NCBI GenBank assembly: GCA_016209155.1
Contig: JACQWU010000243.1
Location: 1-21,045, forward strand
DNA from: Candidatus Desantisiibacteriota bacterium
Lineage (GTDB): Bacteria > JACRDZ01
Direction: 5' to 3'
DNA: 21,045 nucleotides
Shown: positions 2,938 to 19,900 of the stretch, in pieces
How positions within the stretch are numbered: position 1 is the stretch's first letter
Layout of the letters: every line of letters starts with the position of its first letter
Made by a program: the position numbers and the translations under genes
Notes under the pieces: model-generated
The model's input: the letters and a program-made list of their open reading frames with translations, nothing else
Database searches by the model: none
What the model was told of the DNA's origin: nothing

Positions 2938-4731
2938 ATGATACTCACTAATAAAAAAAACAGGAATAATTTTATTGTTTTATCAGTGACTATTTCCGCA
3001 CTTTTTTTTATGACTGTTTTTTCTGAAGCCGAAGACAAAAAAAGCAATTTAAAAACTTTATTACCGGCCTTCGCCCTGCCTGATAAAAAAAAAGATACGG
3101 GACTTGATTTAACAAATGTAAAAATGCGAACAGGAGCAGAAGAGGGTGCTCCGAATGTTCATTCTTTTTTAGGATGTGATTTTTGTCATTCAAAAGTTCC
3201 GGAAAAGGGGTTTGATAAAAAACAGAATCCTGAATTGATTAAATTAGATACAGAGTCCGCGATTTGTGAAACATGTCATGTGCGTGAATGTCTGCATTCA
3301 TCAGAATTAGATCCTTTAACATTAACCCCGCCAATGGATGTCCCTGTTAATCTGCCCCTCGGGACAGGCGGCAAATCAAAAGGGAAAGTTACCTGTATGA
3401 CCTGTCATTATATACATGGGGATACCTTTCTTAATCAGTTAATCCGCGGTTTTGCCATGAACAATACTGATACGAAAATAACATATTCAAGAAGGCTTGA
3501 TTTCTGTTTAGCATGCCATAGCAAAGATGAGGGAGGCAGCAGTAATAAAGGTGCAATATGGAAAGCGCACAAAGGATACAAAGAAAACAAATATTGTGAT
3601 GTTTGCCATAAAACCGCTAATGTTGAAGAATTAAATAAAATAAGAGAGATAAAAACAAAAAAAGAACGTGATCAGAAGACGCTGGCAAGTTTAAGGGCAA
3701 CAATAAAAAGTTTATGTGTTTATTGTCACGTTGATCAGGCAGGTCAACAGCACTTTAGAGTTGTAAATGTTTTTGCCGATAAAAATATTAAAGTGAATTT
3801 GGAAGAATTAGGTCTGCCTCTTTTGGAAGGCAAGTTTACATGTGTGACATGTCATGATACGCATGGAGTATCAGAGCAAAATGCGCATTATTTGAGAAGT
3901 GCTTATCTTCAGGTGGCAACTATGTCCAGCCGTGTTAATCCGCATAGAAGAAAAGATTTTTGTCTTTCCTGTCACACAAGATATGACGAACGCGGAAAGG
4001 TTGCGGGCGGACTTAAGTTTAATAACGATATTAATAAAGTGTGCACATGGTGTCATGATGGAACACAGGCAAGATCAGATGTGCATCCTATTAATGTTGT
4101 TTTAAAAGAAAGTGAGTATATGAAAAAACCTCAGGAACTTATTTTGACAGCAGATGGAAAATTAACCTGCTATACATGTCATTATACAGGATACGGGGAA
4201 TGTGAAAAAGATTCTGTTCATGCTAAAAAAGCACAGGATTTGACTAATGTAACTCATTTAAGAGGACATCCTTTTGAAAATCGATGGGATGAATGTTATC
4301 TGTGTCATGTGAAAAAGGAATTTAAAAAATTCAACGCACATTATCAACTGGATAGTACTACAGGCAAAATTATTGAAGAGTCATGTATTTTTTGTCATGC
4401 CTCACGACCGGAAATAGAAATAAGTGGAATGGAAAAACCAAAATTTAAGGGGGTTTTAATTTTTCTATGTCTTGGTTGTCATCCTGATAGTCCTCATCCG
4501 GGACGAACAGTGGATGGTAAAGGTGTAAATCATATGGTTAAGCCTATAGAAGTTCCGGGAAAATTAAAAATACCTGAAGGTCTTCCCAGAAGTGACAAGG
4601 AAAGACTTCATTGCGGTTCATGCCATAATCCCCATGCAAAAGGTGTAATAAAAACATTAATGGGTAAAGGTGCAGGTGCAAAAGAACGAAGGCGGTTCGA
4701 AAAGTGCACAGATTGTCACATTTCTAAATAG
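2938..4731 (+). CDS. Exported cytochrome c with 15 CxxCH haem-binding motifs
   Basis: A predicted periplasmic or extracellular electron-transfer protein, 597 residues. Residues 1-33 form a signal peptide: basic start (KKNRNN), hydrophobic core (FIVLSVTISALFFMTVF) and a cleavage site near SEA|ED. There is no lipobox and no later membrane segment. I count 15 CxxCH motifs between residues 80 and 594, all of the plain two-residue spacing, for example CDFCH, CETCH, CMTCH, CTWCH and CTDCH. Several are followed by a second histidine (CMTCHYIHG, CVTCHDTHG, CGSCHNPHA), the pattern of the doubled-CXXCH family, and free histidines for axial ligation are plentiful. The gene is followed after nine bases by a small membrane protein, a possible partner. 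No cytochrome maturation gene is in the window. Its redox partner is unknown; it could link a membrane quinol oxidase to an acceptor outside the inner membrane. I do not recognise a named family such as OmcS or MtrA. Confidence 0.9.
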   Translation: MILTNKKNRNNFIVLSVTISALFFMTVFSEAEDKKSNLKTLLPAFALPDKKKDTGLDLTNVKMRTGAEEGAPNVHSFLGCDFCHSKVPEKGFDKKQNPELIKLDTESAICETCHVRECLHSSELDPLTLTPPMDVPVNLPLGTGGKSKGKVTCMTCHYIHGDTFLNQLIRGFAMNNTDTKITYSRRLDFCLACHSKDEGGSSNKGAIWKAHKGYKENKYCDVCHKTANVEELNKIREIKTKKERDQKTLASLRATIKSLCVYCHVDQAGQQHFRVVNVFADKNIKVNLEELGLPLLEGKFTCVTCHDTHGVSEQNAHYLRSAYLQVATMSSRVNPHRRKDFCLSCHTRYDERGKVAGGLKFNNDINKVCTWCHDGTQARSDVHPINVVLKESEYMKKPQELILTADGKLTCYTCHYTGYGECEKDSVHAKKAQDLTNVTHLRGHPFENRWDECYLCHVKKEFKKFNAHYQLDSTTGKIIEESCIFCHASRPEIEISGMEKPKFKGVLIFLCLGCHPDSPHPGRTVDGKGVNHMVKPIEVPGKLKIPEGLPRSDKERLHCGSCHNPHAKGVIKTLMGKGAGAKERRRFEKCTDCHISK

Positions 4732-5139: not shown

Positions 5140-5736
5140 ATGACAAGGAGGGTATTAATCAGTGTATCTGATAAAACAGGCATAGAAAATTTTGCCAGGA
5201 GTCTTGTGGAATTGAATTTTGAAATAATTTCAACAGGAGGAACAGCTTCAAGTTTAAAAAATGCAAAAATTCCTGTTATTGATATATCTGAATTTACCGG
5301 TCTCCCGGAAATACTCGGAGGACGTGTTAAAACTCTTCATCCCAAAGTATATGCAGGACTACTTGCGCGCCGGAGTGATGCCAAACATGTAGAGCAACTT
5401 AAAAAATTGAATATCCCTTATATAGATCTTGTTGTTTTTAATCTATACCCTTTTAAAAAGACAATTGCTAAAGAAGGTGTAACTATTGAGGAAGCAATAG
5501 AAAATATTGATATCGGCGGTCCAACTGCAATACGTGCGGCTGCTAAAAATTATGAAAGTGTGGGGGTTGTCATAAATCCGGAACAATATGAGGAAGTTCT
5601 TAAAGAATTAAAAAGTCATAACGGAGAATTAACTCTTAAAACCAGGTTTAAACTTGCGGCAGAAGTTTTTCATTATACATCACAATATGATGACATGATA
5701 TTTAAGTATTTGAAAATGAAGGAACAGATAAATTAA
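5140..5736 (+). CDS. purH: Stand-alone IMP cyclohydrolase (N-terminal half of PurH)
   Basis: This enzyme closes FAICAR to IMP, the last step of de novo purine synthesis. At 198 residues it covers only the MGS-like IMP cyclohydrolase domain; the usual bifunctional PurH is about 510-530 residues with a C-terminal AICAR transformylase. Motifs present are SVSDKTG, ISTGGTA, GGRVKTLHPKVYAGLLARR, VVFNLYPF and IDIGGPTAIRAAAKNY, matching the intact domain. It stops at TAA after YDDMIFKYL, the natural domain boundary. The next 60 bases carry no remnant of a transformylase and lead into exbB, so this looks like a true single-domain protein rather than a broken one. The transformylation step must be done by a separate protein (a split PurH C-terminal domain or a PurP-type enzyme) encoded elsewhere. 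It probably shares a transcript with exbB. Confidence 0.9.
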   Translation: MTRRVLISVSDKTGIENFARSLVELNFEIISTGGTASSLKNAKIPVIDISEFTGLPEILGGRVKTLHPKVYAGLLARRSDAKHVEQLKKLNIPYIDLVVFNLYPFKKTIAKEGVTIEEAIENIDIGGPTAIRAAAKNYESVGVVINPEQYEEVLKELKSHNGELTLKTRFKLAAEVFHYTSQYDDMIFKYLKMKEQIN

Positions 5737-5762
5737 TTGATATAGAGTTAAAATTTAAATTT

Positions 5763-5775
5763 CTCGTTTAACGAG
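5763..5775. repeat. 13-base palindrome just ahead of the exbB ribosome-binding site
   Basis: CTCGTTTAACGAG is two 6-base arms (CTCGTT/AACGAG) around a single central T. It ends five bases before the AGGAGGT that serves exbB. It could be a dimeric-repressor operator or a small hairpin that hides the ribosome-binding site. A chance palindrome is possible in this A+T-rich gap. Confidence 0.35.
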
Positions 5776-5797
5776 TAACAGGAGGTATAAAGATACA

Positions 5798-6547
5798 ATG
5801 GAAAAGAATAAGGTTATACTAAAACAGGCGATTTTTTTTACAGGTATGTTTCTTTTAATTATTTTTGCGGTTTCTGTGTTTGGAGTTGAAGAGGTTGATT
5901 ATAGCATAAAAAATACCAGACCATGGGTAGTGGATATGTTTGTCCGCGGCGGAATAACAATGTATATGATTCTTGCATGCTCGATAGTAGGGTTATATAT
6001 TACAATTGAAAAATCAGTTAAAGTACGTAAAAATATGCTTATGCCTTCACCCTTTATTGCTCAGCTTAGGAATACGGTAAAATCAAACGATATTACACAA
6101 TTAATGGAGCTTTGTAAAGATAAAGATATTTCCATTGCAAAAATAATTTCTTCGGGACTTAATGAATATAGAGAAGGTATTTCCGCAGTACGTGAAGCAA
6201 TAGATAACCAGGGTACAATAGAAGTAGGTTATCTTGCACAGCATTTGCAGATAATGGGAGTTCTGGCAAATATGGCGCCTTTGTTTGGTTTTCTTGGAAC
6301 TGTTACAGGAATGATTAGCGCTTTTGGAGTTATCGCCGGTTATGGGTCAAGTCGTCCTGACCTTCTGGCGGCAGGAGTTGCAGAAGCATTGATAACAACA
6401 GCATATGGATTATTTGTGGGTATTCCTCTGCTTATATCTTATTATTATTTTGACGGTAAAGTAAGTCATCTTTCATTGGAAATGCAGGAAACAGCATCAA
6501 GTATTGTTAATGAATTAATGCATGGAGGAGATTTAGGTGGCATTTAA
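5798..6547 (+). CDS. exbB: MotA/TolQ/ExbB-family proton channel protein
   Basis: This is the inner-membrane stator channel of a Ton/Tol-type energy-transducing complex; with ExbD it uses the proton motive force to move a partner that reaches across the periplasm. It has 249 residues. An N-terminal hydrophobic segment (residues ~10-30) is followed by the first core helix (GGITMYMILACSIVGLYITI). After a cytoplasmic region come two helices with family signatures, APLFGFLGTVTGMISAF and AEALITTAYGLFVGIPLL, holding the Thr/Ser residues that line the proton path. The ATG at 5798 follows a strong AGGAGGT. It overlaps exbD by 11 bases, a typical coupled pair. The extra N-terminal segment resembles ExbB forms with a periplasmic leader. 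TolQ-type use is equally possible: the family is clear, while the choice between ExbB, TolQ and a specialised paralogue is not. Confidence 0.9.
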   Translation: MEKNKVILKQAIFFTGMFLLIIFAVSVFGVEEVDYSIKNTRPWVVDMFVRGGITMYMILACSIVGLYITIEKSVKVRKNMLMPSPFIAQLRNTVKSNDITQLMELCKDKDISIAKIISSGLNEYREGISAVREAIDNQGTIEVGYLAQHLQIMGVLANMAPLFGFLGTVTGMISAFGVIAGYGSSRPDLLAAGVAEALITTAYGLFVGIPLLISYYYFDGKVSHLSLEMQETASSIVNELMHGGDLGGI

Positions 6548-6938
6548 AAGAGACTCTAAAAAAATAGATCTATCTTTGCCGTCATTAAGCGATATTATTT
6601 TTCTATTATTAACCTTCTTTCTTTTGACAAGTAATTATGTTGAGCTTGATGAAATGCTGGATATTAAGCTTCCAAATGCAAAAGGCACTGAGAGTCAGGA
6701 AAGACAAAATAATCTAATAGAAGTAAGTCTTGACGGAAAAGTAAATTTCAATGGTACCAGAGTTACCAAAGAGGTTCTGCAATTCAAACTTAACAAACTT
6801 ATGCATGATTTTCCTGATGAAGTGGTCGTTGTCCGTGCTGATAAGAGAGCTCAATATTCCGATGTTGTTTCTATTATGGGAATTTGTAAAGCAGCCAAGG
6901 TAAAGAGACTTGGACTTGCGGCTTTAATGGAAGATTAA
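6537..6938 (+). CDS. exbD: ExbD/TolR-family protein
   Basis: This is the small partner of the ExbB channel, 133 residues. It has a short cytoplasmic start, one transmembrane helix (residues ~17-35) and a periplasmic domain. Asp19 in LPSLSDIIFLLLTFFLL sits where the single proton-carrying transmembrane aspartate of ExbD/TolR lies. The periplasmic part (DIKLPNA, IEVSLDGKVNFNGTRV, VVVRADKRAQYSDVVSIM, LGLAAL) follows the ExbD fold. It begins at GTG 6537 inside the exbB end, preceded by GGAGG at 6524-6528 with good spacing, so translation is coupled to exbB. The TonB-like gene follows after 131 bases that hold a tandem repeat. Which of TonB or TolA function it serves cannot be decided from this protein alone. 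Confidence 0.9.
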   Translation: MAFKRDSKKIDLSLPSLSDIIFLLLTFFLLTSNYVELDEMLDIKLPNAKGTESQERQNNLIEVSLDGKVNFNGTRVTKEVLQFKLNKLMHDFPDEVVVVRADKRAQYSDVVSIMGICKAAKVKRLGLAALMED

Positions 6939-6942
6939 TTTT

Positions 6943-6970
6943 ATTGCGGATTGCGGATTGCGGATTGCGG
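6943..6970. repeat. Four tandem copies of the 7-base unit ATTGCGG
   Basis: Four perfect head-to-tail copies begin five bases after the exbD stop. The last copy gives TGCGGA (6966-6971), which can pair with TCCGCA at 7012-7017; that arm is followed by six Ts. A hairpin with a ~40-base loop and four interchangeable left arms is therefore possible between exbD and the TonB-like gene. The spacing is far too tight for CRISPR. The block could vary in copy number. Confidence 0.8.
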
Positions 6971-7069
6971 AATTAAATTTGGTTATTAATTTCATGTCCT
7001 ACTATCTACTCTCCGCATTTTTTATTTATTGCACTTTGTATAACATACCTAAAAAAGGCAGGATTAAAA

Positions 7070-10000
7070 TTGAGCTTAGTTTATTATTATTTAAAAAATA
7101 AAAATAGTAAGTTGTTTGATTTTATTAATTTTATTGTTTCAATGTGTGCCCATATTATCCTTTTTTTCCTTTTAAATACTATCCCCAATGTTGTATCTCA
7201 GCCTGCTTCATGGACTCAGGTTCATACAGTTAAACAAAAAGGAGAAGCAGGAAAAAGCTGGGCAAGAGGAATAGAAGTAATAAACATGGTTCCACCAAAT
7301 GAAATTAAAGTTGTTGAAGGTCAAAATAAAGATAAAAGCGGTAAATTAAAAAAAATAAATTTGGTTAAAAAAGGTAAAGGTAAGTTAAAAAAGGGATTTA
7401 ATCCTAAAATCAATTTTGCAAATAAGACTGAAGCCGGACCTGAAAAACTGGTCCCGAAAAAAAATGATATAAAAGAAACTAAAGTTTTAGAAAAATCAGC
7501 TTCTGCTCCGCGTATAAAAAGCGGGGAAAGAGGAGTGCGTTCTATTACAGAGAAATCGCCTCTCAGCTCTCCTCCAACTGCTAAAGTAGGACAACCCAGT
7601 AAAAAAACCGGAGGAGATGAAGGGCCTAAGGATAAATATGCGCAGAAAGCACCGCCAAAACCCGCTCCGCTTAAGAAAGTAGAAGTTGCAAAATCATCTA
7701 TACCTGAACCGGTCAAAATAATAAAGAAGACTATGATTGCTCCAAAAGCTGTTATTCCGGTTAAAAGGGAAATTGAAAAAATAGAACCTATTGCTAAAGC
7801 AGAAGATAAAAAGATAGAGATAAAAAAACCTGAAGAAAAGATGGAAAAGCTTGAAGAAAAAGCTCCTGATATTGTTCCTAAACCGGAAGAAATTTCTAAA
7901 CAGGAAAAGATTTTTAAGGATATAACAAGTGAAATTATGAAAAAAAGCAAGATTTCAGAACCTAATCTTACCCGTGTAGCTGAACAGCCTAAAAAAATTT
8001 CTATTACTGCTAAAACTGAGGTTGTTGCAAGTGAAAAGGCAAAAGATATTTCTATTCCTGAAGAAAATAAAGATATAAAAAAAGTTGATATAAAAGACCA
8101 GTTTAAATTAGGATCTCCTGCCGGTGCATTTGAAAACAAAATAAAAGATATAGAGGGTGAAGGGCCGCCTGTGAGTTTTGCGGTCAAAGGAGATAAAGAG
8201 TTAAGCAAAGCTTTAAGAACAACTGCTGAAATTGACAATATAAAAATTTCCGAAAAAGAAATGAGTAAGACATTAGAAGAAATTGAAAGAATTGATACTA
8301 AAACAGTAAGAACTATTACTCAGGGTACAATATTAAAAAATCGTTCTACTATTGAACCCGTGCTGTCACGAGAACCCAGGCATATAAAAATGGCTTCTCT
8401 TTCTCCTTCTGAACAACAGGAAATAAAATCAGAGGATAAATCAGAGGAAAGGAGCAAAGAAGTATTAAAACCCGAAGAGAAATTTGTGAAAGCTGAGGAA
8501 ATTAACAAATTGATGGAAGAGCTTAAGAAGGAAGAAGAGAAAAAAGTAGCGGAAAATAAATTCGATACATCTTTAGAAAGTGAATTTGCACTATTAAATC
8601 AGAAAGAAGAAGTAAATAAGGATGCTAAAATTATAGGTATGGAAAATATAGTAGCATCCGGAGATAAGGGACAGTCTATTGAAACGATAAAAATAAAAAG
8701 AACATTTGATAGAAATCCCATGTCAGTTACCAAGAGAACACCTTTAACTCATGTCAGCAATGTCGGCTCAACACGACAGGTGGTAACAAAAGATATGTCC
8801 TCGGATGAAGTTAAAAAAGTTGAGAAGCAAATTGAAAAAATTAAAAAAACAGCTTTAGTAACAGGTGAAGGCGGCGGTACTGCCTTGTTTTCACCAATTA
8901 TCAATAGAATAGACTTAGATAGCCTTCTGGCTCAGGAAGAAGAAATCGGGGTGTCGCAAGGTGAAAAAACAGGCAGCCAGTTTGATGGTACGGGAGAAGA
9001 GGCTTCAGGATTTGATATAAATCCTGAACCGGACAAGGAAATAGTACAAGATTTTAAAAGCTATGAAAAAAAATCTAAAAGCGATAAGTCATTTTCAGAA
9101 AAAGAAACATTTAATTTATCTGAAGGAGGAGCAGGAGGAGAATTAAGCGGATTGGGTAAGACGAGCGGAGGAAAAGATACTTTTATCGGACTGAAAGATA
9201 AGCAGCTTACGGAAATTGAAAAACATGGCAGAGAAATTACATCTTTTCAGAAAGCCAGAGTTATTAGTATCCGTAAAGGTAAATTTCCTATGATTAAAAT
9301 AGTAGCGCATGATGCCACTCATACTCTTGGAAAAGGTGATGAGCTGGTTGTAACCTTAAGCGGTGATCCCGGGGAAAAGGCTTCTTTTGATATAGGTCTG
9401 TTTCGCACAGATATCGACATGAATGAAATTTCTCCCGGTGTTTATCGAGGATATTACAGAGTGATGGAGGGAGATAATATTGTAGATGCAACTATTGTTG
9501 GTTATTTAATGAATAGACAAAATAATCAACAGTCAATGGCTGCATCCAAAACAGTAAGTATTGATACTTCCCCCGGTGTTACAATTGCTACTCCTCCTCG
9601 TGATAGTACAGTAGATAAAGCTGTCCAGACAGTAACAGGGGTTGTTGATGATCCCGAAGTTAAAAATGTTGTATTATCTCTAAACGGCAGTATGCGTAAT
9701 GTTATAGTTGAGAATGGATTTTTTAATACAGATGTGGATCTCTTAAAAGGTAAAAATATTGTTGAAGTTATGGCAGTTAATTCAAGAGGTGATGTTGGAC
9801 GGGATAAAATAGAAATAACTTATGCCACTTATAAAGCAGGTCCAAAAGTTACTATAACTTTTCCTAACGACGGAGATATGGTAAATTTAGCTGAGAGCCT
9901 AGTACTTGAAGTACAGGGGACTATAAGTGATATTAGTTTAACAAAAGCGAAATTGCTGATAAATGATTTGCCAATGGATATTAGTGTTCAGGACGGGGAA

Positions 10001-10522
10001 TTTAAACAAAAAATAGTAGTTTTTTCTGAAATAAACAGTGTGGTGGTTCAAGCCATAAATAAGGAAGGGACAATAGGTATGAGCGAACCTATAACTGTTA
10101 AGGCGACTGGCCTTGGTCATTATGATGCAATTATAAGTCTTTATTGGGATACTCCTCAAGCAGATGTTGATTTAATAGTAAGAAGAGGTGAAAAATTTAT
10201 TTCACACAAAGCGCAAAATTTTAGAATGAATCCTAATGCCATACCGGAAGGAGAGCTGCAGCTGGATGATATGCAGGGTTTTGGACCGGAAGTTATAACA
10301 CTTAGGCAGGCTACTTCAGGATTATATTCCGTACATGCCGCTTATTATGAAGCCAATGGAGATAAATCTGTTAATGCAACCATCAGTATAACACTTACAG
10401 ATCAAAATGATCCGACAAAAATCACTTCAAAAGTATTTGGTCCGAAAACAATGAATGTAGGTGAGGAATGGAAAGTGATTTTTATTGGTATTCCCGAAAT
10501 GAGATTTTATGCTGTTGAGTAA
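7070..10522 (+). CDS. TonB/TolA-like anchored periplasm-spanning protein with Ig-like modules and a C-terminal YfaP (DUF2135) domain
   Basis: A predicted inner-membrane-anchored protein of 1150 residues, encoded directly after exbB-exbD, the place of TonB or TolA. I see one N-terminal transmembrane helix (residues ~20-38), then about 600 residues of low-complexity Lys/Glu/Pro/Ser-rich sequence with stretches such as KKPEEKMEKLEEKAPD, as in TonB/TolA spacers. A beta-sandwich module follows at ~725-830 (KGDELVVTLSGDPG ... SPGVYRGYYRVMEGDN), then two Ig-like modules (~834-920 and ~924-1013). The end (~1018-1150) is a YfaP/DUF2135 domain: LYWDTPQADVDLIV and GELQLDDMQGFGPEVITL match its WDtxxtDVDLhV and DDxxGxGPE marks. 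No TonB C-terminal fold is visible. The start is TTG 7070, six bases after AGGA; the next in-frame Met would cut into the membrane helix. By position it is the ExbB/ExbD-driven partner, but its target is unknown. Confidence 0.75.
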   Translation: MSLVYYYLKNKNSKLFDFINFIVSMCAHIILFFLLNTIPNVVSQPASWTQVHTVKQKGEAGKSWARGIEVINMVPPNEIKVVEGQNKDKSGKLKKINLVKKGKGKLKKGFNPKINFANKTEAGPEKLVPKKNDIKETKVLEKSASAPRIKSGERGVRSITEKSPLSSPPTAKVGQPSKKTGGDEGPKDKYAQKAPPKPAPLKKVEVAKSSIPEPVKIIKKTMIAPKAVIPVKREIEKIEPIAKAEDKKIEIKKPEEKMEKLEEKAPDIVPKPEEISKQEKIFKDITSEIMKKSKISEPNLTRVAEQPKKISITAKTEVVASEKAKDISIPEENKDIKKVDIKDQFKLGSPAGAFENKIKDIEGEGPPVSFAVKGDKELSKALRTTAEIDNIKISEKEMSKTLEEIERIDTKTVRTITQGTILKNRSTIEPVLSREPRHIKMASLSPSEQQEIKSEDKSEERSKEVLKPEEKFVKAEEINKLMEELKKEEEKKVAENKFDTSLESEFALLNQKEEVNKDAKIIGMENIVASGDKGQSIETIKIKRTFDRNPMSVTKRTPLTHVSNVGSTRQVVTKDMSSDEVKKVEKQIEKIKKTALVTGEGGGTALFSPIINRIDLDSLLAQEEEIGVSQGEKTGSQFDGTGEEASGFDINPEPDKEIVQDFKSYEKKSKSDKSFSEKETFNLSEGGAGGELSGLGKTSGGKDTFIGLKDKQLTEIEKHGREITSFQKARVISIRKGKFPMIKIVAHDATHTLGKGDELVVTLSGDPGEKASFDIGLFRTDIDMNEISPGVYRGYYRVMEGDNIVDATIVGYLMNRQNNQQSMAASKTVSIDTSPGVTIATPPRDSTVDKAVQTVTGVVDDPEVKNVVLSLNGSMRNVIVENGFFNTDVDLLKGKNIVEVMAVNSRGDVGRDKIEITYATYKAGPKVTITFPNDGDMVNLAESLVLEVQGTISDISLTKAKLLINDLPMDISVQDGEFKQKIVVFSEINSVVVQAINKEGTIGMSEPITVKATGLGHYDAIISLYWDTPQADVDLIVRRGEKFISHKAQNFRMNPNAIPEGELQLDDMQGFGPEVITLRQATSGLYSVHAAYYEANGDKSVNATISITLTDQNDPTKITSKVFGPKTMNVGEEWKVIFIGIPEMRFYAVE

Positions 10523-10534
10523 CAAAAATTTAAG

Positions 10535-10563
10535 TTGGCAAAATCTTAGAAAATTTGTATAAT
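10535..10563 (+). promoter_or_regulatory. Near-consensus sigma-70-type promoter for the TPR gene block
   Basis: TTGGCA at 10535-10540 (five of six) is followed after exactly 17 bases by a perfect TATAAT at 10558-10563. It lies 12 bases past the stop of the TonB-like gene. The first TPR gene starts at 10788, so a transcript from here would carry an untranslated leader of more than 200 bases containing the hairpin and dispersed repeat listed separately. This is the best promoter match in the window. Confidence 0.65.
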
Positions 10564-10583
10564 AACTAAAATATTAACTGTTC

Positions 10584-10622
10584 AGGAGGATGGTTTTATA
10601 GGCACTTTTAAAAAAAAAAGTG
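10584..10622 (+). other. Leader element: orphan AGGAGG, three-codon ORF and A-rich hairpin
   Basis: AGGAGG (10584-10589) touches an ATG at 10590 that reads Met-Val-Leu-stop. Immediately after, CACTTTT (10603-10609) can pair with AAAAGTG (10616-10622) around a six-A loop. The ribosome-binding site has no usable spacing to that ATG, so translation there is doubtful. The block lies in the predicted leader of the TPR genes and may be regulatory or may be the remains of a lost gene start. Confidence 0.3.
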
Positions 10623-10626
10623 ATGT

Positions 10627-10678
10627 AAATTAAAATGCAAAAATCAAAATGCAAAATGACAAATTAAAATTAAAATTA
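10627..10678 (+). repeat. Dispersed AT-rich intergenic repeat, copy A
   Basis: A 52-base element that recurs at 17073-17125 with one C/T substitution and one single-base length difference. Both copies are on the same strand and in intergenic sequence. It is built from related short words (AAAATGCAAAA, ATCAAAATGC, AAATTAAAATT). Here it lies in the leader of the TPR genes. The near-identity over 50 bases in different contexts marks a repeat family rather than chance A+T richness. Confidence 0.8.
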
Positions 10679-10743
10679 AATTTAAAAATGATTGTTTATT
10701 TTATACTTAAACTTATGAAAGTAAGTTATAGTTTTAATATGTG

Positions 10744-10756
10744 ATTTTGATTTTTG
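10744..10756 (-). repeat. Inverted partial copy of the dispersed repeat core
   Basis: ATTTTGATTTTTG here is the exact reverse complement of CAAAAATCAAAAT at 10638-10650 inside copy A. The two arms are 93 bases apart and bracket the rest of the leader, so copy A plus this arm (10627-10770) may be one element with inverted ends. The match is 13 bases of low complexity, hence modest confidence. Confidence 0.45.
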
Positions 10757-10787
10757 AATTTAAAATGTATCTGTTTTAGGAGGACGT

Positions 10788-11468
10788 ATGATTATGAAAA
10801 AAAGTATTATGTATTTATTATTAGTAGTTTTTTTATCTTTAACTTTTTATTTACCTGCTGAAGCAGGGGACGATAAATGCAGTAAACAATATTTATTTGC
10901 TGCAGGATTATATGAAAAGGGAAATTTTGAATTGGCAATTGAACAGTTTCAGCGTTTTATTACTGAATGCCCGCAAAATGAAACTGCCGCTGATGCTCAG
11001 TACTGGATCGGAGAATCTTATTATAATCAGGAAAAATATAAAGAAGCCATTGGTGAATATACAAAGGTAGTAGGAACATTTCCTAAAAACAAGATAGCAA
11101 GTGAATCGCAGTCAAGAATAGGAAATTGTTATTATCTTTTGCAGGATTATAAAAATTCTATTTCAGCTTATCAGAAAGTATTGGATGATTATCCTTCAAG
11201 CGAGGAAGCTCAAAGTGCATTATATTGGCTTGGCTGGAGTTATTTTAAAAATTCTGATTTTGAGAATGCAGCTAAAACCTATGACAGATTTTTGAAAAAC
11301 TATCCGCAAAGTCAGCTTGTTGTTGAAGCTGTTTTTATGCTTGGAGAATCTTTGTTTAATTTGCAGAAATATGCACCTGCGATAGATATTTATAAAAAAA
11401 TTACCGGTATGCCAACTCCACAGGAGCCATATACATTAAATTCATATTATGGTCTTGGCTGGTGTTAA
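10788..11468 (+). CDS. Exported TPR protein, CpoB/YbgF-like, 5' fragment of a split gene
   Basis: A 226-residue protein with a signal peptide (MKKSIMYLLLVVFLSLTF, cleavage near AEA|GD at ~26) and about five TPR units of the 36-37-residue kind seen in CpoB/YbgF and BamD, for example LFAAGLYEKGNFELAIEQFQ. In the Tol-Pal system CpoB follows Tol genes and links envelope constriction to peptidoglycan synthesis, so the position after ExbB/ExbD and a TolA-like gene is suggestive. AGGAGG at 10778-10783 can serve ATG 10788 or, with better spacing, ATG 10794. It stops in mid-repeat: after GLGWC, where helix A should continue, TAA intervenes. The next frame resumes at IFSRILKNYP, the end of helix B of the same repeat, and overlaps this stop. 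I read this as the front of a once continuous gene of about 1300 codons, broken by a small deletion, or as an assembly error there. Confidence 0.75.
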   Translation: MIMKKSIMYLLLVVFLSLTFYLPAEAGDDKCSKQYLFAAGLYEKGNFELAIEQFQRFITECPQNETAADAQYWIGESYYNQEKYKEAIGEYTKVVGTFPKNKIASESQSRIGNCYYLLQDYKNSISAYQKVLDDYPSSEEAQSALYWLGWSYFKNSDFENAAKTYDRFLKNYPQSQLVVEAVFMLGESLFNLQKYAPAIDIYKKITGMPTPQEPYTLNSYYGLGWC

Positions 11469-14400
11469 TTTTCAGCAGGATTTTAAAAAATTATCCGGAA
11501 AGTGAACAATGTATAGAATCTCAATATAAGATAGCCGAAAATTATTATATGAAAGGAGATTATAGTTTATCTCTTGATGAATTTTCAAAATTTGTATCTT
11601 CATATCCTGATAATAATTTAGTGCCTACAGCCAAATATTATCTCGCTGAATGTTATTTCCATGCAGATAAGTTTGATTCTGCTTTGCTTAATTATCAAAA
11701 TGTCCTTGAAAAAAATCCTGAAATAGATATTGCAGATAATCTGCAGTATAGCATAGCCTGGAGTTATTATAAAAAGAATGAAATCGATAACGCCAGAAAA
11801 AATTTTGCAATTCTTATTGAAAAATATCCGAAAAGTCAGTATTCTCCGGATAGTTATTATCGTCTTGGAGAAATATCTTATAATAAGGGAGATTTACAGG
11901 AAGCCATTGATAAATTTACAAAATTCACCGAACTTGTTCCAAATAGTCCCAATGCCAGCGATGCTTATTATTGGATAGGATGGAGCTATTATCAGCTTAA
12001 AAATTGCACGAAAACAATAGAAACATTTGAAAAATTAAAGACTAATTATCCTAAAAACCGTTATATGAGAGATATAGAATATTTAATGGCTGAGTGTTAT
12101 TATAAAGAAAATAAGCTTGAAGAATCAAAAAAATATTATAACAAGGTGTTAGAAAGTAAAGCTGATACGACTTATGTGCCTGATTCATTATTTGGGTTAG
12201 TATATGTCTATCAAAAACAAAATGATGAAAATAGAGTTATTGAATTGCTTCAGGAATTAGTTAGGAGATTTCCGGCGAGTAAATATGCTGCGGATTCATA
12301 TTTAAAACTTGGAGATTATTATTATAAGAATCAGAAGTATGAACAGTCGATAGAATCTCTAAAAAGAATTACATCAGACACAGCTTTGTACATTCAATCG
12401 GCCACTATTTTAGACAGTACACAGTCTACTTTAGAAAAACCTGTGTATAAGAATGTGAACCGGACTAATCCACAGGTAATTTATGCTCAGCTTTTAATTG
12501 CTGATGCGTATTTAAATCTTAAAGATACAAAAAACGCAGTCCGGGAGTACCGCTTTTTTCTTGAAAAATTTCCTGATAGTGAAAAAAACATAAAAGTACT
12601 TAAAGCTCTCGCATGGATTTACATTCAGGAAAAGGATTACACATCAGCAATCGTAGCATATAATGATCTACTTTCGAAAAATCCTCCGTCAAATACTATT
12701 GATGAAATACATTATAATATAGGGGAAGCCTATTATTCTTTAAAAAATTATGATAGCGCTATTTTTGAATATGAGCGGATAAGAGGAGGAGAATTTGCGG
12801 ATGATGCTCTTTATGGCAGTGCCTGGAGCAGCTTAAAGAAAAAAGATTATAAAGCAAGTATAGCTGATTTTCAGGACCTGGTAGATAAGCATCCTGATTC
12901 CAAATATCTTGCTGAATCACTTTTTCGTATAGGAGAAATTTATTATTTGCTTAATCAATATGATTCTGCATTTTATAGCTATAAGAAAAATATTGATAAG
13001 CAGCCTAAAAATGAATACTCAGATGATGCGTTTTACTGGATGGGATGGACTGGATTAAAAGGTAATGACTTTAATAAGGCGATAGAGTCGTATACTCAGC
13101 TTATTGAGAAATATCCGGGCAGCGAATTTGTTGAAGATGCTTCCTTCCGTATAGCATTTTCATATATGAGTATGAAAAACTATGATATGGCTATTAAAAA
13201 ATATCAGGAATTTTTAGCTAAATATCCTCAGGGAAAATTAGTGGAGGATGCAATATATGCTCTTTCTCAATGTTATCATGATAAAGGTGATGCAAAAGGC
13301 GGAGAAACAGAGCTTAGTGATCTTTTAGGTAAAGATTTTAATCCGGAAGTTAAAATACATATTGAATATATACTCGGGTTAAGCGCTTTTAACAGAGAAG
13401 ATTACGCAAAATGCGTTGAATATTATGAAAATTTTTTGAAAAAATATCCTGATAATAATCGAAATAAAAATGTATTATTCAGATTAGCGCAGGCTTATTA
13501 CAATCAGAAAGAATACAAAAAAGCCATAGAAAAACTTATGGAATATCGCCAGAAATTTCCGGGCGGAGAAGATTTTGAAAGTGCAATCTATTGGACAGGG
13601 CTTGCTTATTTGCAAATGAAAGAGCCTGATAAAGCACGCGAGGAATGGAATAATATTATTAATAATCCTGCAAGCAAATTAATAGGAGATGTGGAGTATC
13701 AACTTGGAGAAATATTATATGCAGCAGGTAAATTTGATGAAGCGCTTAATAAATATAAACAAATAATTGAAAAATATCCTGCTAATATAAAAGCATTTAA
13801 TGCGGCAAAATATAGTATCGGATGGACATATATTCAGCTTAAGGATAACAACACTGCCATAGAGAAATTTAATGATATTGTGGTAAATCACCCGGACAGT
13901 GAATACTGGGCATTTGCTTTTTATAAATTAGTTGAGCTTTATTCTGAGATAAATAAAAATGATGAATTGATATTATTATATGAAAAATATAGCAGTAAAT
14001 TGACAAAAGATGAAACTTATTATAATGCTTTATATCGAATAAGCACAGGATATAATGCTTTGAAAAGATATGATGATGCAATTAGGACTTATGAAATTAT
14101 TGCGGCTTCCGACAGGGAAAAATTAAAATCCAGGGCATTGCTTGCAGAGGGGTATATATATGTTGAACAGAAAAAATGGTTTAGCGCCCGCGAAAAATTT
14201 GAAAAAATAACAAAAAATTATCCTGATGAACCGGAATGGGAGGAAGCTCAATATAATCTTGCTATAACATGGATTAAAGAAAATAAATGGAATGAAGCTA
14301 TCAAAAGTTTGGAACCTTTAATTAATAAAAAAGGTGAATATTCGGATGATGCCTATTTGCTGTCAGGTATATCATATTATCAGACAGGTGATTATTCTAA

Positions 14401-14713
14401 TTCTGTGAATTTTTTACGCAAGCTTATGGATGATTTTTCCTCAAGTAAATTTGTAGCTGAAGCGCAATTTAGAATCGGGGAATCCTTATTGGCGGATAAA
14501 AAAAATAAAGAAGCTATTGTAGAATATTTAAAAATGGATATACTTTACAAAAATAGTGAATATGCAGACGATGCTTTATTACGGCTGGGTGAAATTTACG
14601 AAATGGAAAATAACCTGCCAAAAGCAAAAGAAACATATAAAGCATTTATTTCAAATTATCCTACCAGTGAACTTATGGAAGATGTAAAAAACAAATTAAA
14701 AAAACTGGAATAA
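11462..14713 (+). CDS. Giant TPR-repeat protein, 3' remainder of the split TPR gene
   Basis: This frame encodes 1083 residues made almost wholly of TPR-like units about 35-37 residues long, roughly 26-28 by counting ends such as KNYPES, EKYPKS, DKHPDS, EKYPGS and SNYPTS. Recurrent words are YYWIGWSYY, RLGEISY, FRIGE and AEAQFRIGESLL, the CpoB/BamD-type extracellular TPR style. It has no signal peptide; the first codon available is GTG 11462, which overlaps the previous stop and falls inside a repeat unit. It is therefore unlikely to have evolved as a separate gene and probably is the body of the exported protein beginning at 10788. If translated alone by reinitiation it would stay in the cytoplasm. 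The reading frame is otherwise clean over 3.2 kb, so the break is recent or artificial. It probably acts as a large periplasmic protein-binding scaffold for the ExbB/ExbD-linked machine. Confidence 0.75.
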   Translation: MLIFSRILKNYPESEQCIESQYKIAENYYMKGDYSLSLDEFSKFVSSYPDNNLVPTAKYYLAECYFHADKFDSALLNYQNVLEKNPEIDIADNLQYSIAWSYYKKNEIDNARKNFAILIEKYPKSQYSPDSYYRLGEISYNKGDLQEAIDKFTKFTELVPNSPNASDAYYWIGWSYYQLKNCTKTIETFEKLKTNYPKNRYMRDIEYLMAECYYKENKLEESKKYYNKVLESKADTTYVPDSLFGLVYVYQKQNDENRVIELLQELVRRFPASKYAADSYLKLGDYYYKNQKYEQSIESLKRITSDTALYIQSATILDSTQSTLEKPVYKNVNRTNPQVIYAQLLIADAYLNLKDTKNAVREYRFFLEKFPDSEKNIKVLKALAWIYIQEKDYTSAIVAYNDLLSKNPPSNTIDEIHYNIGEAYYSLKNYDSAIFEYERIRGGEFADDALYGSAWSSLKKKDYKASIADFQDLVDKHPDSKYLAESLFRIGEIYYLLNQYDSAFYSYKKNIDKQPKNEYSDDAFYWMGWTGLKGNDFNKAIESYTQLIEKYPGSEFVEDASFRIAFSYMSMKNYDMAIKKYQEFLAKYPQGKLVEDAIYALSQCYHDKGDAKGGETELSDLLGKDFNPEVKIHIEYILGLSAFNREDYAKCVEYYENFLKKYPDNNRNKNVLFRLAQAYYNQKEYKKAIEKLMEYRQKFPGGEDFESAIYWTGLAYLQMKEPDKAREEWNNIINNPASKLIGDVEYQLGEILYAAGKFDEALNKYKQIIEKYPANIKAFNAAKYSIGWTYIQLKDNNTAIEKFNDIVVNHPDSEYWAFAFYKLVELYSEINKNDELILLYEKYSSKLTKDETYYNALYRISTGYNALKRYDDAIRTYEIIAASDREKLKSRALLAEGYIYVEQKKWFSAREKFEKITKNYPDEPEWEEAQYNLAITWIKENKWNEAIKSLEPLINKKGEYSDDAYLLSGISYYQTGDYSNSVNFLRKLMDDFSSSKFVAEAQFRIGESLLADKKNKEAIVEYLKMDILYKNSEYADDALLRLGEIYEMENNLPKAKETYKAFISNYPTSELMEDVKNKLKKLE

Positions 14714-14736
14714 AATTATAGTAGAAGGGGGTATTT

Positions 14737-15780
14737 ATGAAAAATAAATTTCTTTATTTAAAAATATTGATTTTTGTATTTTTTATTGGGATTTTTACAG
14801 GATGCAGCAATAAAGCTGATCAGCTCCTTGCAGCAAAAAAACTAATAGATAATAAAAAATATGTTGAAGCTGTTCCAATTCTTGAAGATCTTATAAAATA
14901 TGATCCTGAAAATGCAGAAGCACATTTTTATCTTGGTATATCCTACACGTATGATAATCAACATGAAAACACAGAAGCAGCCGAGCAATTTAAGAAAGCC
15001 ATTATTGCCAAACCTGAATACGCTGAAGCGCATTATCAGCTTGGGATGACATATTATGAAGGCGGAGTAGGTACAATGGAGGATGCGATAGCTGAATTTG
15101 AAAAGGCTATTTCAATAAATCCTAAATATGCTCAGGCAATGAATAGTCTTGGACTTGCTTATTATGATAAAGGACTGGAAGAAGAAGCTATTGCTGAATG
15201 GGAAAGAACCATCAGTATAGATAATTCATTTTATCTTGCTAATAACAATCTTGGATGGCTTTATTTTAATAATAAGGAATATCAGAAATCCATTGAGCAG
15301 TATCGTAAAGCAATCAAAATTCAACCAAATGATGCTGTGGCTTTTTATAATTTAGGATTGGTATATTCCGCTATGAAACAATATGACAGTGCTGTTATTT
15401 ATTATAAGAAAGTTGTAAAGCTTACACCTAACAATCCAAACGCACATTATATTCTTGGTGATACATATTTTACAAATAACATGTATCATGAAGCAATTAA
15501 TGAATATAAAAAAGTTCTTGAAATTAATCCATTTGATGCTGAAGCCCATTTTGCTCTCGGCAGGGCAAATGAAAAAACCGGATATCTGGAAGATGCAATT
15601 GCTGAATATAAAAAAGCTCTTGAAGTGGACCCTAATTATGCAGAAGTTCATTATCAACTCGCTGAAACCTATTACCGTAACGGTAGAATAAAAGATGCAA
15701 GTGATGAATTAAAAAGCGCACTTGCTTTAGTTCCAGACTATCCGGAAGCTAAAAGTTTATTAGGTAAAATAACAAAGTAG
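14737..15780 (+). CDS. TPR-repeat lipoprotein
   Basis: A 347-residue predicted lipoprotein. The signal sequence has a basic start (MKNKFLYLK), a hydrophobic core (ILIFVFFIGIF) and the lipobox FTGC at Cys23, with Phe instead of the preferred Leu/Val/Ile three residues before. The mature part is nine or so canonical 34-residue TPRs (for example AEAHFYLGISY, AQAMNSLGLAYYDKG, AVAFYNLGLVYSAMKQYDSAV), ending in ALALVPDYPEAKSLLGKI. These are regular TPR-1 units unlike the 36-residue CpoB-type units of the gene before. Ser24 after the lipid Cys would allow outer-membrane sorting under Lol rules. It follows the giant TPR gene by 23 bases with GAAGGGGG as ribosome-binding site and precedes purD closely, so it is in the same operon. 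It is a likely protein-protein adaptor anchored in the envelope; PilW/PilF-like or NlpI-like roles are possible but not shown. Confidence 0.85.
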   Translation: MKNKFLYLKILIFVFFIGIFTGCSNKADQLLAAKKLIDNKKYVEAVPILEDLIKYDPENAEAHFYLGISYTYDNQHENTEAAEQFKKAIIAKPEYAEAHYQLGMTYYEGGVGTMEDAIAEFEKAISINPKYAQAMNSLGLAYYDKGLEEEAIAEWERTISIDNSFYLANNNLGWLYFNNKEYQKSIEQYRKAIKIQPNDAVAFYNLGLVYSAMKQYDSAVIYYKKVVKLTPNNPNAHYILGDTYFTNNMYHEAINEYKKVLEINPFDAEAHFALGRANEKTGYLEDAIAEYKKALEVDPNYAEVHYQLAETYYRNGRIKDASDELKSALALVPDYPEAKSLLGKITK

Positions 15781-15799: not shown

Positions 15800-17074
15800 A
15801 TGAATATTTTAGTAATAGGCAGTGGCGGACGAGAACATGCTATCGTATGGAAATTAGCACACAATAAAAATATTAAAAAAATTTATTGCGCGCCGGGAAA
15901 TGCCGGAATTTCAGAATTAGCAGAGATTATTCCCATTGATGTCTCAGATATTAATGGATTAAAATACTTTGCCTCTTCACATAATATAACCCTCACTGTG
16001 GTAGGTCCCGAAGTTCCCCTTTCATGTGGTATCAGCGATATTTTTTTGGAATCGGGTTTGAAAATTTTTGGGCCATGTAAAGATGGAGCCTTGCTTGAAA
16101 GCAGTAAAATTTTTGCTAAAGAATTTATGTCACGGCATAATATTCCCACAGCGGATTTTTTTATTTTTGATGAAGAGCAAAAAGCCATAGATTATTTGCG
16201 GACAGCTTCATATCCGCTGGTAATCAAAGCTGACGGTCTTGCTGCAGGTAAAGGAGTTATTATTGCTGACAATTATAATGAAGCATGTATAGCCGTAAAA
16301 AATATTATGATTGAAAAAATTTTTGGAAATGCAGGGGACAAAATATTGATAGAGCATTTCCTTACAGGAGAAGAAGCATCAGTTCTGGCTTTTATTGATG
16401 GGGATACAATCCTGCCAATGGCGGGAGCGCAGGATCATAAAAGAATACTGGACAATGACAAAGGTGCCAATACAGGAGGAATGGGAGCTTATTCCCCTGC
16501 CCCTGTGGTTTCTAAGGAAATAGAAAAGAAAATTAATGAAAAAATTTTTTATCCGCTGCTTAATGGATTAAAAAAAGACAGGATTGATTATAAAGGTGTT
16601 ATATATGCAGGAGTTATGATAGAAAAAGGAGAACCCAGTGTACTCGAGTTTAACGTTAGATTTGGAGACCCTGAGACACAGGTGATTTTACCGCGTCTTA
16701 AAAGCGACCTTCTTGAAGTTATGCTGGCTGTTGTTGATAACAAATTAAAAGAAATACAACTGGAATGGTATCCATCCCATGCTTTATGCGTTGTGATAGC
16801 TTCAGGCGGTTATCCTGAACAATACGAAAAAGGCAAAGTAATAACAGGACTTGAAAAATTATCATCTGAAAAAGATATAACAGTATTTCATTCAGGTACT
16901 TCCTTAAAGGGAGATAAAATCATAACATCAGGCGGAAGAGTATTGGGTGTCACAGGTATAGGTGAAACCCTAAAAGAAGCTTATAATAAAGCATATGAAG
17001 GTGTTGAAAAAATTAATTTTGAAAATATGTATTTCCGCCGGGATATAGGGCACAAGGCTCTTAAAAACTGCTAA
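15800..17074 (+). CDS. purD: Phosphoribosylamine-glycine ligase (GAR synthetase)
   Basis: PurD joins glycine to phosphoribosylamine with ATP, the second step of de novo purine synthesis; it is a cytosolic ATP-grasp enzyme. Starting at ATG 15800 (MNILVIGSGGREHA) gives 424 residues, the family length. GTG 15788 would only add four residues and lacks a ribosome-binding site, whereas AAGGA at 15791-15795 serves 15800. Motifs in order are GSGGREHA (N-domain), VVGPEVPLSCGISD, KADGLAAGKGV (ATP-grasp loop), AGAQDHKR, NTGGMGAYSP and LEFNVRFGDPETQ (metal and ATP binding); the C-terminal domain is complete. It follows the TPR lipoprotein stop by 19 bases and so probably rides on the envelope transcript. 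Together with the purH domain at 5140 it brackets the ExbB/TPR cluster. The stop codon overlaps the first bases of the dispersed repeat, copy B. Confidence 0.95.
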   Translation: MNILVIGSGGREHAIVWKLAHNKNIKKIYCAPGNAGISELAEIIPIDVSDINGLKYFASSHNITLTVVGPEVPLSCGISDIFLESGLKIFGPCKDGALLESSKIFAKEFMSRHNIPTADFFIFDEEQKAIDYLRTASYPLVIKADGLAAGKGVIIADNYNEACIAVKNIMIEKIFGNAGDKILIEHFLTGEEASVLAFIDGDTILPMAGAQDHKRILDNDKGANTGGMGAYSPAPVVSKEIEKKINEKIFYPLLNGLKKDRIDYKGVIYAGVMIEKGEPSVLEFNVRFGDPETQVILPRLKSDLLEVMLAVVDNKLKEIQLEWYPSHALCVVIASGGYPEQYEKGKVITGLEKLSSEKDITVFHSGTSLKGDKIITSGGRVLGVTGIGETLKEAYNKAYEGVEKINFENMYFRRDIGHKALKNC

Positions 17075-17125
17075 ATTAAAATGCAAAAATCAAAATGTAA
17101 AATGACAAATTAAAATTTAAAATTA
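17073..17125 (+). repeat. Dispersed AT-rich intergenic repeat, copy B
   Basis: A 53-base near-copy of 10627-10678 (one substitution, one single-base insertion in the T-run near the 3' end). It begins within the purD stop codon and lies in the 158-base gap before the MBL-fold gene. No target-site duplication is evident. The rest of the gap, to 17232, shows no clear promoter, RNA gene or terminator. Confidence 0.8.
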
Positions 17126-18691: not shown

Positions 18692-19900
18692 TTAGTTCGC
18701 TCTATCGCGTTTTTCCCGTAGAAGTTTTTCTGTTAAATCCTGATAGACATTGAAAGATTTTTTATATTGTTCGATTGCATTTCTATTATCTTTTAGATTA
18801 AGATATATTTCACCCATGTTGAAATAAGACATGGCAAAACGTATTTTTTCATCAATGGTAAAATCCTTCCATCCGGAATAACGTTTTATTGCTTCTTCTA
18901 TTTTGCTTTTAGCTGAATCAAATACTTTATTATCAATACAAATTGTTCCCATGCCATAATATCCTTCAGCGGCTTTGGCTGAATCGAGGTCAATGATGTT
19001 TTTAAACTGTAAAAAAGCATCGTCTTTTTTTTTTTTTTTTTTACATAAAAAACCATAATTTAAAAGTGTTTGCACATTATTTGGTTCCAGAGTCAGAGCT
19101 TTCCGGAATGCTTCAACTGCTTTCTCTTTTTTTCCTTCCTGCATATAATATTCGCCGAGAGTGCTGTGAGCCAGCGCATAATCAGGGTCTTTTGTTATAG
19201 CAGTCAAAAGATGCTCAATGGCTTTCTCTGTATTCCCTCTTTGTTTTACTACAACAGCCAGTTTATAACTAAAATCGGCTTTGTTTTTGGGCATATATTC
19301 CTGTTTTTTTACAATAATTTCTTCAGGTATCCCCAGAGTTTTTTTTACATTAGTACGGATATCTCTTTCTGCGCCGAATTCAGGAAATCCGGATAAGATA
19401 TAAGTTACTATTCCGTTTTTGTCCAGAATGGCAGAGCTCGGAAGTGTGATAATTCCATATTTACTAAAAACACCTAATCCTTGATCAATCAATACAGGAT
19501 AAGTTATTTTGTTATCATCGATTATTTTTTTTATTCCATTTAGTTCTTCATCTGTTACATTTTTATCGGTCTGGGGGCAATAAACAGCAACAACTTCCAG
19601 CCCTTTATCCAAATTATAAGTATCATGCATTGTCTGCCAGTAAGCAAGAGCCTTATCCCCTCTTAAACTGGGGAATTTAAAAAAAACTAAAACAAGTGTA
19701 TTTTTATTTTTAAAACTTGAAGTACTTATTGAGGTTCCATTTATATCTTTTAAAGTAATATCAGGAGCAGGTTCTCCAACACCGAGGCGTTTAAAAGCCT
19801 GCGCATGTATCTGCGGGAGGAAAAATGTTCCAATAATAGTTAAAATAATTATAATTAGAAAATGATGTAATAAAGTTTTAAAATTTTTTTGTTTTCTCAT
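18692..19900 (-). CDS. Exported thioredoxin-like (catalytic cysteines absent) plus TPR protein, paralogue 1
   Basis: A 402-residue protein with a signal peptide (residues 1-35, cleavage near AQA|F). Residues ~39-185 form a thioredoxin/AhpC-TSA-like domain: GEPAPDITLKDINGTSIS, the strand LVLVFFKFP, VVAVYCP, TYPVLIDQ, the cis-proline LPSS and ILDKNGIVTYILSGFP. Four or five TPRs follow (~205-395). Where a CxxC or peroxidatic Cys should follow the first strand, the sequence is FKFPSLRGDKALAYW, with no Cys, so classical redox activity is unlikely. A cysteine in VYCP is shared with the paralogue. The ATG at 19900 has AAGGAG six bases upstream. It lies 48 bases after the stop of paralogue 2 in one operon. 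A run of six lysines is encoded by an 18-base A-run. It is probably a periplasmic binding or scaffold protein; the ligand is unknown. Confidence 0.8.
   Translation of the reverse strand: MRKQKNFKTLLHHFLIIIILTIIGTFFLPQIHAQAFKRLGVGEPAPDITLKDINGTSISTSSFKNKNTLVLVFFKFPSLRGDKALAYWQTMHDTYNLDKGLEVVAVYCPQTDKNVTDEELNGIKKIIDDNKITYPVLIDQGLGVFSKYGIITLPSSAILDKNGIVTYILSGFPEFGAERDIRTNVKKTLGIPEEIIVKKQEYMPKNKADFSYKLAVVVKQRGNTEKAIEHLLTAITKDPDYALAHSTLGEYYMQEGKKEKAVEAFRKALTLEPNNVQTLLNYGFLCKKKKKKDDAFLQFKNIIDLDSAKAAEGYYGMGTICIDNKVFDSAKSKIEEAIKRYSGWKDFTIDEKIRFAMSYFNMGEIYLNLKDNRNAIEQYKKSFNVYQDLTEKLLREKRDRAN
19025..19042. repeat. 18-base homopolymer (T on plus strand) inside a coding region
   Basis: Eighteen consecutive Ts (A-run on the coding strand) encode six lysines between two TPRs of paralogue 1. 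Paralogue 2 has the same length at this place (LCMEMGMKDDA against LCKKKKKKDDA), so the frame as given is correct. A tract this long is prone to slippage and to sequencing error. Confidence 0.9.

Follow-up and report, generated by a model that had tools for sequence, protein, structure and literature searches.

Introduction

TonB and TolA dock on ExbB/TolQ via the SHLS motif, that is, Ser-3X-His-6X-Leu-3X-Ser, and the pore residues of the corresponding motors have been named as Thr145 and Thr178 of TolQ and Asp25 of ExbD (PMC12905483). Williams-Jones et al. 2025 (PMC12204202) described transducers that combine an SHLS helix and a disordered linker with a vWA head and are encoded beside motor and tetratricopeptide repeat (TPR) genes, and these authors expect more systems of this sort. 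Here, we analyzed a stretch of 21,045 nucleotides (hereafter, the window) that represents contig JACQWU010000243.1 (C177 in our numbering) of the AT-rich genome of a Candidatus Desantisiibacteriota bacterium (GCA_016209155.1; 3.08 Mb in 352 contigs, 79% complete), in which exbB and exbD are followed by a gene, here called X, for a TonB-like protein with a different head. We consider it reasonably likely that this locus is an extra, divergent copy of the ExbB-ExbD-TonB-TPR type of Ton cluster of the phylum, the head of its transducer having been exchanged and being driven by the motor. Comparisons within the phylum were based on four genomes, i.e., the genome of the window and three others (G001, G002, and G003).

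Results

At the sequence level, the locus combines an ExbB/ExbD pair that is intact and belongs to the Ton-cluster clade with X, next to it, which has a TonB-type helix and a beta-sandwich-Ig-Ig-YfaP head, and with exported TPR neighbours. Along the + strand, a 5' piece of purH precedes exbB, exbD, X, a TPR gene split in two, a gene for a TPR lipoprotein, and purD, with the following motor and transducer features:

5798..6547, + strand: ExbB/TolQ-family proton channel subunit, 249 aa, complete (PF01618, E 4e-28)
6537..6938, + strand: ExbD/TolR-family axle subunit, 133 aa, complete (PF02472, E 1.6e-25)
7070..10522, + strand: gene X, TonB-like transducer with a non-TonB head, 1150 aa, TTG start (Pfam and lineage hidden Markov model, HMM)
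7121..7183, + strand: N-terminal membrane helix of X, residues 18-38 (Ser24, His28, and Leu35 are three of the four SHLS residues)
7250..9244, + strand: Lys/Glu-rich low-complexity linker, 665 residues (61-725), by composition
7526..7570, + strand: conserved linker island RG(V/I)RSITEKSxLSS, residues 153-167 (word score vs. a paralogue on contig C34 of the same genome)
9278..9571, + strand: beta-sandwich module, residues about 737-834 (also in proteins of contigs C139 and C88 of the same genome)
9572..10117, + strand: pair of Ig-like domains in tandem, of the Glucodextran_B type (PF09136, E 1.4e-14, in two stretches), covering residues 835 to about 1015
10121..10519, + strand: YfaP/DUF2135-like C-terminal domain, residues 1018-1150 (133 residues; hhalign, predicted beta-sandwich)

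The two motor genes overlap by 11 nt, and both pore threonines are kept in the window ExbB (alignment to the solved TolQ, 8odt), as is the transmembrane aspartate in ExbD (alignment to the solved ExbD, 6tyi), which bears out an earlier note on this DNA that had called the pair intact and coupled. The window ExbB falls in one clade with the ExbB-ExbD-TonB-TPR clusters of its own genome (C228), G001, G003, and G002 (support 100/99), and the window ExbD groups with the ExbD of C228, G001, and G003 (support 97/95). Clusters of this type were found on C228, G001 C114, and G002 C80, with the copy on G003 C11 being cut by the contig start, while clusters of the type TPR-receptor-ExbB-ExbD-TonB were found on G001 C119, G002 C199, and G003 C36. 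Since the window ExbB and ExbD fall with the former type, X sits where TonB is encoded in such clusters, and the large TPR gene downstream is the neighbour that ExbBD usually has in the phylum. The equivalent slot encodes TonB_C in C228 (PF03544, 7.6e-8) and G001 (5.2e-7), as well as in G002, where Pfam missed the domain and an HMM built from the lineage itself detected it (5e-5). The C228 TonB gene (L030:7831-8728) changes frame within a Gly-rich stretch and is thereby split, with TonB_C in the second frame.

X has the TonB/TolA topology that had been described for it, that is, one N-terminal helix followed by the long linker, but not the corresponding C-terminal domain. Because Pfam gave no match to TonB_C (PF03544/PF13103) or TolA_C up to E 10, and because the lineage TonB_C HMM scored X at E 0.24 vs. 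5e-5 for the held-out TonB missed by Pfam, the C-terminus of X lacks TonB_C at the sensitivity available. The C-terminus has instead a positive family assignment. When X and its paralogue were combined in one profile and E. coli YfaP and four proteins of other genomes in a second, hhalign matched the two with a probability of 98.3 (E 1e-14), with W, D, D, and E columns common to both. The ending proposed in the earlier note (beta-sandwich, two Ig-like modules, YfaP domain) stands. X scores below, and E. coli YfaP above, the gathering score of PF09906, a model that spans just 48 positions. In E. coli YfaP, the DUF2135 domain is also C-terminal, behind another exported region. Neither a vWA nor an FHA match to X was found in Pfam, and glucodextranase was the only match in a PDB sequence search with the Ig part. 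Single-sequence AF2 prediction of the YfaP domain gave eight strands (predicted local distance difference test, pLDDT, 64; predicted template modelling score, pTM, 0.64), while that of Ig-Ig-YfaP (pLDDT 35) was unusable. Foldseek found no match below E 0.001 for the YfaP-domain model (pLDDT 64), and VIA-align returned TerD-like, DUF4425, Ca-dependent carbohydrate-binding module, and protease jelly-roll domains at Z 6-7; no fold was assigned because these Z values are too low to tell relatives from domains that share a common arrangement. The beta-sandwich module recurs in an Ig/TPR protein (C88) and in a TPR + TonB_C protein (C139). The latter (L034:4015-6870) is an exported TPR protein without motor helix, whose TonB_C-like end scores 5.8e-11 with the lineage HMM and exceeds the PF03544 cut-off.

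Three of the four SHLS residues of the X helix (S24, H28, and L35) are at the correct spacing. Among the 207 open reading frames (ORFs) with a hydrophobic N-terminus in the compared loci, the pattern H..L[hydrophobic]..[hydrophobic][N/P/D] was found in eight, namely six TonB-type proteins, X, and the paralogue of X. Further, an HMM of the helix built without X ranked X 15th of 623 ORF N-termini, higher than any non-TonB protein; TonB-type proteins account for all 14 above X and for the next two below it. Judged from both the motif and the location of the gene, X seems to carry a TonB-type motor-docking helix. The linker that follows (K 17%, E 13%, P 6%, about 50% KEPST) is collinear with that of the C34 paralogue in a few islands and divergent in the rest. 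The island RG(V/I)RSITEKSxLSS has a word score of 56 vs. a maximum of 48 in 200 shuffles, and lower scores, from 50 down to 38, were obtained for further collinear islands, located at residues 62-76, 346-381, and 540-570; of these, the one at residues 367-381 (50) is above the shuffle maximum and the remaining ones are within the shuffle range. These islands, with RGVRSITEKSPLSS among the candidate peptides, might serve as docking sites for TPR proteins, which is the weakest step of the mechanism proposed below.

The C34 paralogue is full-length (1473 aa), open apart from masked Ns, located beside M16 peptidase genes, and 46% identical to X over 408 head residues. Because it keeps the helix, the linker islands, and all head domains, the architecture of X is not a chance fusion on a single contig. 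The same genome also encodes a secreted Ig-Ig-YfaP protein (C198), which has no motor helix and contains an in-frame TGA. A canonical TonB elsewhere in the genome was also looked for, and three TonB_C proteins were found, one with its own ExbBD (C228) and two without adjacent ExbBD (C20 and C22); because of these three proteins, sharing of the window motor with another TonB is possible. TonB-dependent transporters (TBDTs) are present in the genome, with none in the window, and C31 ends in a TPR gene paired with a receptor gene, which points to one more ExbBD cluster, cut by the assembly. Alternatively, X could be an adhesin or scaffold anchored in the inner membrane that is merely located beside exbBD and is not energised, with the motor serving the orphan TonBs. 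The TonB_C proteins on C20 and C22, the location of the X paralogue away from exbBD, and the existence of an Ig-Ig-YfaP protein that is secreted without a motor helix would all fit this alternative. However, the slot filled by X is that of the transducer in a type of cluster with a gene order that the phylum conserves, S24/H28/L35 would be needless for a plain anchor, and the orphan TonBs might just as well be served by the C228 motor or by the TPR-TBDT-type cluster begun at the C31 end; overall, we regard a non-energised X as unlikely.

YfaP heads were also assessed in a broader set of genomes. The YfaP alignment matched 40 of 290 diverse genomes, and in the 39 other than the genome of the window no YfaP match was near ExbD among the matches listed, with the closest pair on the same contig being >110 kb apart (coordinates compared by hand). 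Because of this result, the ExbBD-X arrangement is, among the matches listed, seen just in the genome of the window. Contig scans of the genome collection with X or its C-terminal alignment turned up no relatives, and a full-text literature search found no paper containing DUF2135 and none linking YfaP to a motor. As for gene order, the phylum keeps ExbB-ExbD-transducer-TPR, but the head of the transducer is then of the TonB type; a YfaP head next to ExbBD is seen in this one genome.

Downstream of X, the TPR genes are as follows:

10788..11468, + strand: 5' part of the large exported TPR gene, 226 aa, with signal peptide (PF13174, 3e-32)
11462..14713, + strand: remainder of this gene (1083 aa) in a different frame, without signal peptide (PF13174, 1e-128)
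14737..15780, + strand: TPR lipoprotein, 347 aa, lipobox FTGC (ORF and Pfam)

The frame break, at 11465, lies inside a TPR repeat, and the second piece has a GTG start that overlaps the upstream stop. The earlier note had assigned about 1300 residues to this protein before its break; the exported TPR gene is indeed there, but the piece before the break has 226 aa and the larger figure corresponds to the sum of 226 and 1083. The 1083-aa piece strongly matches TPR genes of the Ton clusters of the phylum. The TPR genes, which had been seen as part of the oddity of the locus, are ordinary neighbours of ExbBD there. The TPR lipoprotein gene follows, as described previously, and purD begins 7 nt after it; the membership of the lipoprotein in the cluster is uncertain. 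It could also be hypothesized that the locus encodes a gliding-type machine like Agl-Glt of Myxococcus, with a motor, a GltG/GltJ-like linker, exported TPR proteins (GltD and others), and a YfaP/Ig head that grips a surface polymer or adhesin. Consistent with this hypothesis, the combination of motor, TonB-like transducer, and exported TPR protein resembles AglR-GltG-GltD (PMC3169522), and the predicted head fold resembles binding-type beta-sandwiches. We nonetheless consider a gliding function quite improbable, given a single ExbD vs. the AglQ/AglS pair, the lack of an FHA match in X, no Glt outer-membrane component seen within the window, and the TPR genes that accompany ordinary TonB clusters in the phylum as well.

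Upstream of exbB, purH (window 5140-5797) is a 198-codon 5' fragment; beyond it, AICARFT similarity is interrupted by five stops and reaches 5796, immediately ahead of exbB. In relatives, purH is full-length (515-521 aa). The truncation may mark the arrival point of the exbB cluster or a recombination or assembly junction. Synteny gave no proof of an insertion between purH and purD; in the stretches compared from three relatives, purH is not followed by purD. In an unrelated genome (L124; G030:C164), exbB-exbD-tonB are located directly beside purD, which the window cluster likewise abuts. Short intergenic repeats are found at window positions 6943-6971 (exbD/X gap), 10627-10687 (X/TPR gap), and 17073-17123 (after purD). 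Their units are ATTGCGG x4 and of the AAATCAAAATGCAA type, and they look like small repetitive elements. An inverted repeat (10630-10764) is located close to the second of them.

The TPR frame break, the purH fragment with its stops, and the first two of these repeats would be expected if the cluster were decaying or misassembled rather than a working unit. However, no interruption is seen in the ORFs of ExbB, ExbD, X (1150 codons), or the TPR lipoprotein, the catalytic residues are kept, and the X paralogue is open apart from its masked Ns, which makes decay or misassembly of the cluster highly improbable. Elsewhere in the window, two tandem paralogues on the - strand (18692-19900 and 19949-21043) encode a redoxin (AhpC/TSA) domain fused to TPR repeats, with similar redoxin-like exported genes near Ton clusters of G002 (L053) and G003 (L058), and an exported multihaem cytochrome c with many CxxCH motifs is encoded at 2938-4731.

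Discussion

Under the favored reading of an additional Ton-type cluster with an exchanged and motor-driven head, we infer the force coupling of X and the target of its head as follows. Proton flow through ExbB/ExbD would move the X helix, with S24/H28 docking it to the side of ExbB, and the long flexible linker of X would pass the force across the periplasm to a head that may hold a ligand other than a TonB box, for instance a protein of the outer membrane, a glycan polymer, or the adjacent TPR scaffold. Since the head is unlike that of TonB, the motor probably acts on an envelope target other than the usual nutrient receptors.

It is important to note that several observations weigh against this interpretation. 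At the helix, the fourth SHLS residue of X is Pro39 instead of Ser, the helix HMM E-value of 0.3 is not significant alone, and the X paralogue scores at background with the same HMM. At the level of gene arrangement, the exbD-to-X gap is 131 nt, which makes transcriptional linkage uncertain, the C34 paralogue has no adjacent exbBD in its assembled contig, the orphan TonBs on C20 and C22 could also use the window motor, and no close relative with the ExbBD-X arrangement was found among the genomes compared. Finally, the data come from a single metagenome-assembled genome, 79% complete and in 352 contigs, with several broken genes in or near the clusters.

The domains that can be attached to the TonB/TolA docking helix define what 5:2 motors can power, and a YfaP/Ig head would lengthen the list of heads beyond TonB_C, TolA_C, and vWA. 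The uncharacterised DUF2135 family would also gain a testable context, that is, force-bearing binding across the envelope. Further, C228 (TonB_C) and the window (YfaP) represent two head versions of one cluster type in one genome; head exchange could therefore be tested by domain swap. It is tempting to go further and place X in a third class of proton-driven trans-envelope transducers, next to TonB/TolA and the vWA type, in which the motor pulls a glycan or surface polymer held by the Ig-YfaP head, via a >600-residue linker with TPR-docking islands, and the window and C34 transducers share motors in one cell; we hold this extended model to be doubtful, if conceivable.

Compared to known systems, the locus resembles Tol-Pal (TolQ-TolR-TolA-TolB-Pal-CpoB) in having motor, transducer, and TPR protein in one cluster, but X has no TolA_C, and TolB_N (PF04052) was found in 0/4 phylum genomes (the genome of the window being 79% complete; the E. 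coli control was positive). Because TolB_N is absent from all four, the cluster is not Tol-Pal, and this label was rejected. The earlier note had matched the order to TolQ-TolR-TolA-CpoB; it is that of the ExbB-ExbD-TonB-TPR clusters of the phylum and not specific to Tol. The accompanying idea of a proton-motive-force-driven machine with a different output domain is supported in part: a protein in the TonB/TolA position, with a helix for docking to the motor and a replaced output domain, is borne out, and the Tol comparison is not. With Agl-Glt, the locus shares a proton-motive-force motor, a TonB-like linker, and exported TPR proteins, but Agl-Glt has two ExbD-like subunits and an FHA-bearing GltG, vs. 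one ExbD and no FHA match in X here. E. coli YfaP (DUF2135; yfaTSQPA region) has a DUF2135-like domain after an Ig-like region, similar to X; however, E. coli YfaP is exported as a free protein and has neither a membrane helix nor a motor, while the module of X is tethered to the inner membrane. The Ton system is matched by ExbB/ExbD homologues of the Ton clusters of the phylum, the transducer slot, and the docking helix, and the difference resides in the head, i.e., Ig-Ig-YfaP instead of TonB_C. Finally, the vWA force transducers (PMC12204202) share with X the TonB/TolA-like topology, an SHLS-type helix with its His, a disordered linker, and a globular head that is not TonB-like, and their motor and TPR genes are adjacent, as at the window locus. 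They differ in having a vWA head and a domain II of about 100 residues, vs. beta-sandwich-Ig-Ig-YfaP after a 665-residue linker in X, and the examples from the Planctomycetes-Verrucomicrobia-Chlamydiae (PVC) group carry a tolR-like gene pair, vs. one exbD here. Because the vWA transducers already show that the head of TonB/TolA can be replaced (PMC12204202), the window locus represents a new head on a known plan.

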